Part shown: positions 3 to 170 of the stretch, piece after piece
Layout: each line of letters starts with the position of its first letter
Position numbering within the stretch: the stretch's first letter is position 1
Source of the DNA: Halovivax sp.
GTDB lineage: Archaea > Halobacteriota > Halobacteria > Halobacteriales > Natrialbaceae
Length of the DNA: 8,414 nt
Assembly (NCBI GenBank): GCA_007135505.1
Contig: SLIS01000125.1
Location: forward strand, 1 to 8,414
Direction: 5' to 3'
Notes under the pieces: generated by a model
Database searches by the model: none
The model's input: the letters and a program-made list of their open reading frames with translations, nothing else
Told to the model about the DNA's origin: nothing
Program-made: the position numbers and the translations under genes

Positions 3-170
3 ACCGAGCCGTTCAGCCGGGCCAAGATCGTCGCCGGGGTGCACAAAGCCTGCCAGGGTCGGCCGGTCGACGAGGACGCCATCGCGCGCCTCGCGCAGCG
101 GGTGGAGGAGACGATCCGGGCCCGCGGTGCGGCGGAGATCCCCAGCCACGAGGTCGGGCTCGCGATCGTC
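3..170 (+). other. Fragment of an actinobacterial-type NrdR ATP-cone, joined in frame to truD
   Basis: The frame is open from base 3 with no visible start. It reads TEPFSRAK, then an [16 protein letters not shown] segment, then [13 protein letters not shown] and [12 protein letters not shown]. This closely matches the ATP-cone of the ribonucleotide reductase repressor NrdR as I know it from Actinobacteria (pattern EPFSR-K-.[20 protein letters not shown]). Haloarchaeal NrdR proteins, as I recall them, differ at several of these places. In NrdR the ATP-cone senses ATP/dATP and follows an N-terminal zinc ribbon, which lies outside the window. After residues HEVGLAI (147-167) the expected NrdR continuation ([16 protein letters not shown]) is absent and archaeal TruD sequence follows. 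The identification rests on remembered family motifs. The segment probably does not belong to this haloarchaeal genome. Confidence 0.7.

Follow-up and report, generated by a model that had tools for sequence, protein, structure and literature searches.

The open reading frame at the left end of the window (the whole stretch of Halovivax sp. DNA analysed, 8,414 nucleotides) joins part of an actinobacterial nrdR gene to part of a haloarchaeal truD gene, and this join is almost certainly a chimeric contig end formed at a 21–22-base identity between the two, most likely by assembly or otherwise as a library chimera. NrdR is the transcriptional repressor of ribonucleotide reductase genes and TruD is tRNA pseudouridine synthase D. 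The left 146 bases would thus be a piece of actinobacterial nrdR wrongly attached to a haloarchaeal contig that starts inside truD; a short-k-mer assembly error is the likeliest specific cause.

The frame (positions 3–914, 303 residues) is open to the left edge of the window, the first possible start inside it being a GTG at 39. The earlier note, made from the sequence alone, had read it as an NrdR ATP-cone that continues as TruD without a break, and both Pfam and NCBIfam name these two families. The ATP-cone match (PF03477) covers residues 1–52 of the frame and profile positions 10–60 of 88 (E 1.8e-9), and the TruD match (PF01142) covers residues 44–294 and profile positions 173–412 of 412 (E 1.3e-79). 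The corresponding NCBIfam models, TIGR00244 for NrdR and NF002158 for TruD, score the frame at 28.9 against a cut-off of 124.65 bits and at 413.9 against a cut-off of 654 bits, respectively, so that both miss the whole-protein level by far. Because the Pfam and NCBIfam matches to NrdR and to TruD are all partial, the frame consists of two truncated pieces, which overlap at HEVGLAI. A zinc-ribbon and a complete ATP-cone were not found in the frame (the zinc-ribbon of the NrdR piece would fall beyond the left end of the window), nor was a complete TruD domain; the GTKD motif, which in TruD contains the catalytic aspartate, is absent.

Solved structures exist for both families. Residues 1–55 of the frame correspond to the ATP-cone segment of NrdR (7p37, 9fvr and others), lacking the zinc-ribbon and the last third of the ATP-cone, and residues 48–303 correspond to the C-terminal 256 residues of haloarchaeal TruD (1z2z and others), lacking the N-terminal half with GTKD. 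As judged from the sequence, no function is expected of the joined NrdR–TruD frame, since its ATP-cone is without the last third and its TruD part is without the N-terminal GTKD half.

The left piece (3–146, plus strand) reads as foreign, being the middle of an actinobacterial nrdR gene, i.e. its ATP-cone, cut by the left end of the window. Residues 1–53 of the frame (bases 3–161) are identical, at 53/53 positions, to two full-length NrdR proteins, P0121 (165 residues) and P0122 (173 residues), both of which continue as NrdR after the shared stretch, where the window switches to VRRDWEGAV; the same 53 residues are also carried by two other proteins, P0249 and P0252. In P0121 the zinc-ribbon is complete and the ATP-cone almost so, and the protein matches 7p37 over its residues 1–147. 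It is 88–93% identical to the other three proteins, and the four diverge directly after HEVGLAI (to LGPL or LVPL) and in a variable, repeat-like tail. The organism-named matches to residues 1–53 (6 among the 120 listed) are all actinobacterial, e.g. Dactylosporangium, Micromonospora and Actinoplanes, and in the class to which an Actinomadura belongs the NrdR part has a match in 377 of 394 genomes. GC3 is 0.94 in 3–146, compared with 0.75–0.85 for the other nine genes or partial genes that were measured.

Since some haloarchaeal genomes had two or three matches to the whole query, the NrdR piece (48 residues) was searched alone against 391 haloarchaeal genomes, in which only distant matches were obtained (34 genomes, 33–46% identity); 14 of these 34 have a truD among the TruD matches listed, and in all 14 the NrdR-like match lies elsewhere than truD. 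An ATP-cone match was found in none of five near haloarchaeal relatives (G213, G366, G106, G077 and G049; loci L082–L093), the control giving 12/14. Derivation of the left piece from an ATP-cone native to haloarchaea was rejected because haloarchaeal identity does not exceed 46%, because the near relatives have no such match, and because NrdR proteins identical over all 53 residues exist. As an observation in its own right, ATP-cones look patchy in the haloarchaeal class, with 0/5 in the near relatives as against a distant NrdR-like match in 34/391 genomes.

To the right of the join, 168–914 (plus strand) is the C-terminal part of a haloarchaeal, Halovivax-like truD, without the N-terminal half with GTKD (PF01142 profile positions 185–412 of 412); its reading frame is uninterrupted. 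The TruD part is 80% identical over 256 residues to residues 214–469 of an intact Halovivax protein of 469 residues (P0002), which itself aligns with 1z2z over two stretches. Among intact relatives, Halovivax proteins match the TruD part best, and the matches include TruD from Halovivax limisalsi and H. gelatinilyticus. It had been proposed that 150–200 N-terminal codons of TruD are missing; the loss is real in the comparison with P0002, where the alignment begins at residue 214, but its size was put too low, about 213 residues being absent. The strain's own intact truD was not found, the nearest full-length TruD among the matches listed being 80% identical.

The whole query was matched in 389 of 391 genomes from the class of Halolamina pelagica (G004, locus L008). 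As anticipated in the earlier note, other haloarchaeal truD genes retain the N-terminal half, all 150 haloarchaeal TruD matches listed being in open frames of at least 441 residues. The match starts at query residue 42–47 in 147 of the 150; it starts earlier in three (at query residues 11, 16 and 19 in G115, G371 and G148), the frames of which are ordinary full-length TruD without an ATP-cone. Of the 113 listed proteins recognised by a TruD pattern, 111 contain GTKD, the exceptions being P0001, which is considered below, and P0115, a protein of 290 residues with a longest contig of 3881 bases.

The rest of the window (915–8414) is a haloarchaeal gene neighbourhood that continues from truD. Nine of its proteins together with the TruD part, i.e. 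ten proteins from the TruD part to a rad50-like protein, match two haloarchaeal chromosomes (L080 and L081) in the same order, and an intact truD with the same neighbours is present in both (80% identity in L080, 78% in L081). Pfam matches were obtained for seven of these proteins; the region encodes a DUF2103 protein, L37ae, a GATase, a proteasomal-type AAA ATPase, a winged helix protein, a metallophosphoesterase and an AAA_23 protein, and prefoldin, mre11 and rad50 are the names we would give to proteins of this region. Given the collinearity of the ten proteins with L080 and L081, the DNA on the truD side of the join is, in the part compared, ordinary for a haloarchaeon. Separate searches thus find each parent as an intact gene of its own, in agreement with the earlier assignment of the left part to actinobacterial nrdR and the right part to haloarchaeal truD.

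The two sources meet at 147–167 (plus strand), where 21 bases, CACGAGGTCGGGCTCGCGATC, encode HEVGLAI. With a Thr codon ending in C in the truD parent, the identity would begin at 146 and reach 22 bases, the length that a real pair of loci, L009 and L010, has in common. In an ungapped comparison, mean identity per 12-base bin is 0.60–0.84 to actinobacterial nrdR and 0.13–0.29 to haloarchaeal truD in 99–146, and 0.68–0.81 to truD and 0.30–0.54 to nrdR in 168–215, while 147–167 itself fits both (mean identities of 0.93 and 0.87), although loci were selected for this comparison by an HEVGLAI-like motif, which favours similarity at 147–167. The comparison took in 26 of 33 haloarchaeal and 34 of 35 actinobacterial loci, the other eight being missed by the motif, and one locus (L053) is the same place as another (L002). 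Rows with zero mismatches to the 21-mer all come from genomes fetched by that 21-mer; the remaining rows have 1–3 mismatches (23 haloarchaeal) or 1–6 (28 actinobacterial).

In a collection holding one genome per species (84,980 species), the exact 21-mer occurs in 10 stretches, six of which are nrdR and three haloarchaeal truD (whole frames of 478, 489 and 482 residues), the tenth being another frame, in an Actinotalea; on uniform-base arithmetic, about 0.1 match would be expected by chance in 257 billion bases, both strands. These occurrences, together with the crossover of identity at 147–167, bear out the proposal that HEVGLAI would be expected in both parents. Because nrdR and truD reach the identical 21 bases in different genomes, the precondition of a false join exists, the comparison being with relatives of the parents rather than with the parents' own DNA. 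The suspicion that two genomes had been falsely joined is likewise sustained, in that both parents are intact elsewhere and the join lies on a stretch identical in both gene families. Separately, a record labelled Candidatus Melainabacteria carries an actinobacterial-type nrdR (L005:409-429), which suggests a mislabelled or contaminated bin.

A second protein has the same inner join with another left end. P0001 (292 residues; source ena; longest contig 3193 bases) agrees fully with the window from residue 33 onward, across the join, and is the only one of the 255 proteins listed with both the NrdR and the TruD anchors. No alignment to the window was obtained for its first 20 residues; the protein departs from NrdR at window residue 32, and its alignment with P0121 starts at residue 21. 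The origin of these 20 residues was not found in a search with residues 1–45, which returned 19 proteins, i.e. P0001 itself and 18 proteins with an ATP-cone, each of which covers 56% of the query. P0001 is itself probably chimeric, and two different left ends on one short NrdR piece are easier to explain by a tangled assembly graph than by one real locus. Either the inner join arose on more than one occasion or the contigs of the window and of P0001 rest on the same reads; if the two contigs come from separate samples, the common inner join would favour real DNA.

Our inference is an artificial join, produced by assembly rather than by library chemistry. For reads from a mixed sample, a graph of short k-mers would hold one node at the shared 21–22 bases, with two ways in and two ways out. 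The left arm of truD and the right arm of nrdR, if short or poorly covered, would be clipped, after which the walk would lead out of nrdR and into truD. The outcome would be no different had a PCR or library chimera formed at this identity. A passage of a review on short-read metagenome assembly describes one assembler as removing dead ends shorter than about 2k, and shared k-mers combined with low abundance as able to yield chimeric contigs (PMC7299287). The window resembles such contigs in that the sequences of two genomes are joined at shared k-mers. By contrast, the chimeras in that passage are mainly between related species, whereas the parents of the window belong to different domains and are unrelated genes with an identity of 21–22 bases (PMC7299287).

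Simulations qualify this mechanism. Error-free graph walks over two real loci without tip clipping (k = 21 or 31) produced no chimeric walk in 20/20 settings, half of which were at k = 31, where the join is impossible. A bare coverage gap is therefore insufficient, and either pruning or a chimeric molecule must be assumed, which weakens the simplest form of the assembly account. In a coarser model that clipped tips shorter than 42 bases (k = 21, 22-base identity), sets of 12,000 trials gave the join 5 to 118 times when both genes had 2–5x coverage and 0 to 11 times at 10x/2x; at 10x/10x the count was 0 of 12,000 for all four read settings. The models take idealised reads and a single locus pair or a single shared block, and so indicate that a route is possible rather than how frequent it is. 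An assembly route to the join is thus possible for genomes of low coverage.

A library chimera, in which a strand ending in the shared 21–22 bases primed the other template during PCR or whole-genome amplification, is a sub-case of the favoured explanation and, taken by itself, rather unlikely. The presence of the same inner join on two contigs with different left ends, and the failure of error-free walks to make the join without clipping, are in its favour; against it, P0001 would then imply another chimeric event some 50 bases away, and assembly is able to produce the join when coverage is low and tips are clipped. A real fusion, in which horizontal transfer joined part of an actinobacterial nrdR in frame to a haloarchaeal truD and so gave a nucleotide-sensing, catalytically dead TruD, is very improbable, even though the reading frame runs through the join without a stop or a shift and P0001 has this join as well. 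Such a fusion would have its ATP-cone cut at profile position 60 of 88, its TruD domain cut at 173 of 412, and no GTKD, a motif nearly constant among the TruD-like proteins recognised (111/113). Its NrdR piece is unchanged, at 53/53 residues, from full-length NrdR proteins and is found only at 33–46% identity in 34 of the 391 haloarchaeal genomes, and the left end of P0001 differs. A real NrdR–TruD fusion was rejected because there is no fused match among the 150 haloarchaeal matches listed and because both domains are cut; the same evidence agrees with the earlier judgement that an inactive TruD fused to a nucleotide sensor is much less likely. A literature search joining NrdR, TruD and fusion found no paper.

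Little credence is likewise given to a truly broken neighbourhood, in which the native strain has a truncated truD pseudogene beside transferred DNA. The strain's intact truD is not among the proteins listed, as such a reading would have it, but the downstream genes compared are collinear with those of relatives whose truD is whole, 168–914 is uninterrupted, and the junction lies exactly on a stretch that is common to nrdR and truD elsewhere. It is extremely improbable that an actinobacterium and a haloarchaeon of one community recently recombined via only the 21–22 identical bases and so put the nrdR fragment in frame on truD; if they did, P0001 would be a second variant of the rearranged locus.

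The preferred reading remains that of a chimeric contig end, and at least one protein with the same join (P0001) sits in a protein database. A chance 21-base identity of unrelated genes can give an open, in-phase and convincing two-domain frame at the end of a contig, and the NrdR–TruD join matters as such a caution, not as a biological claim.
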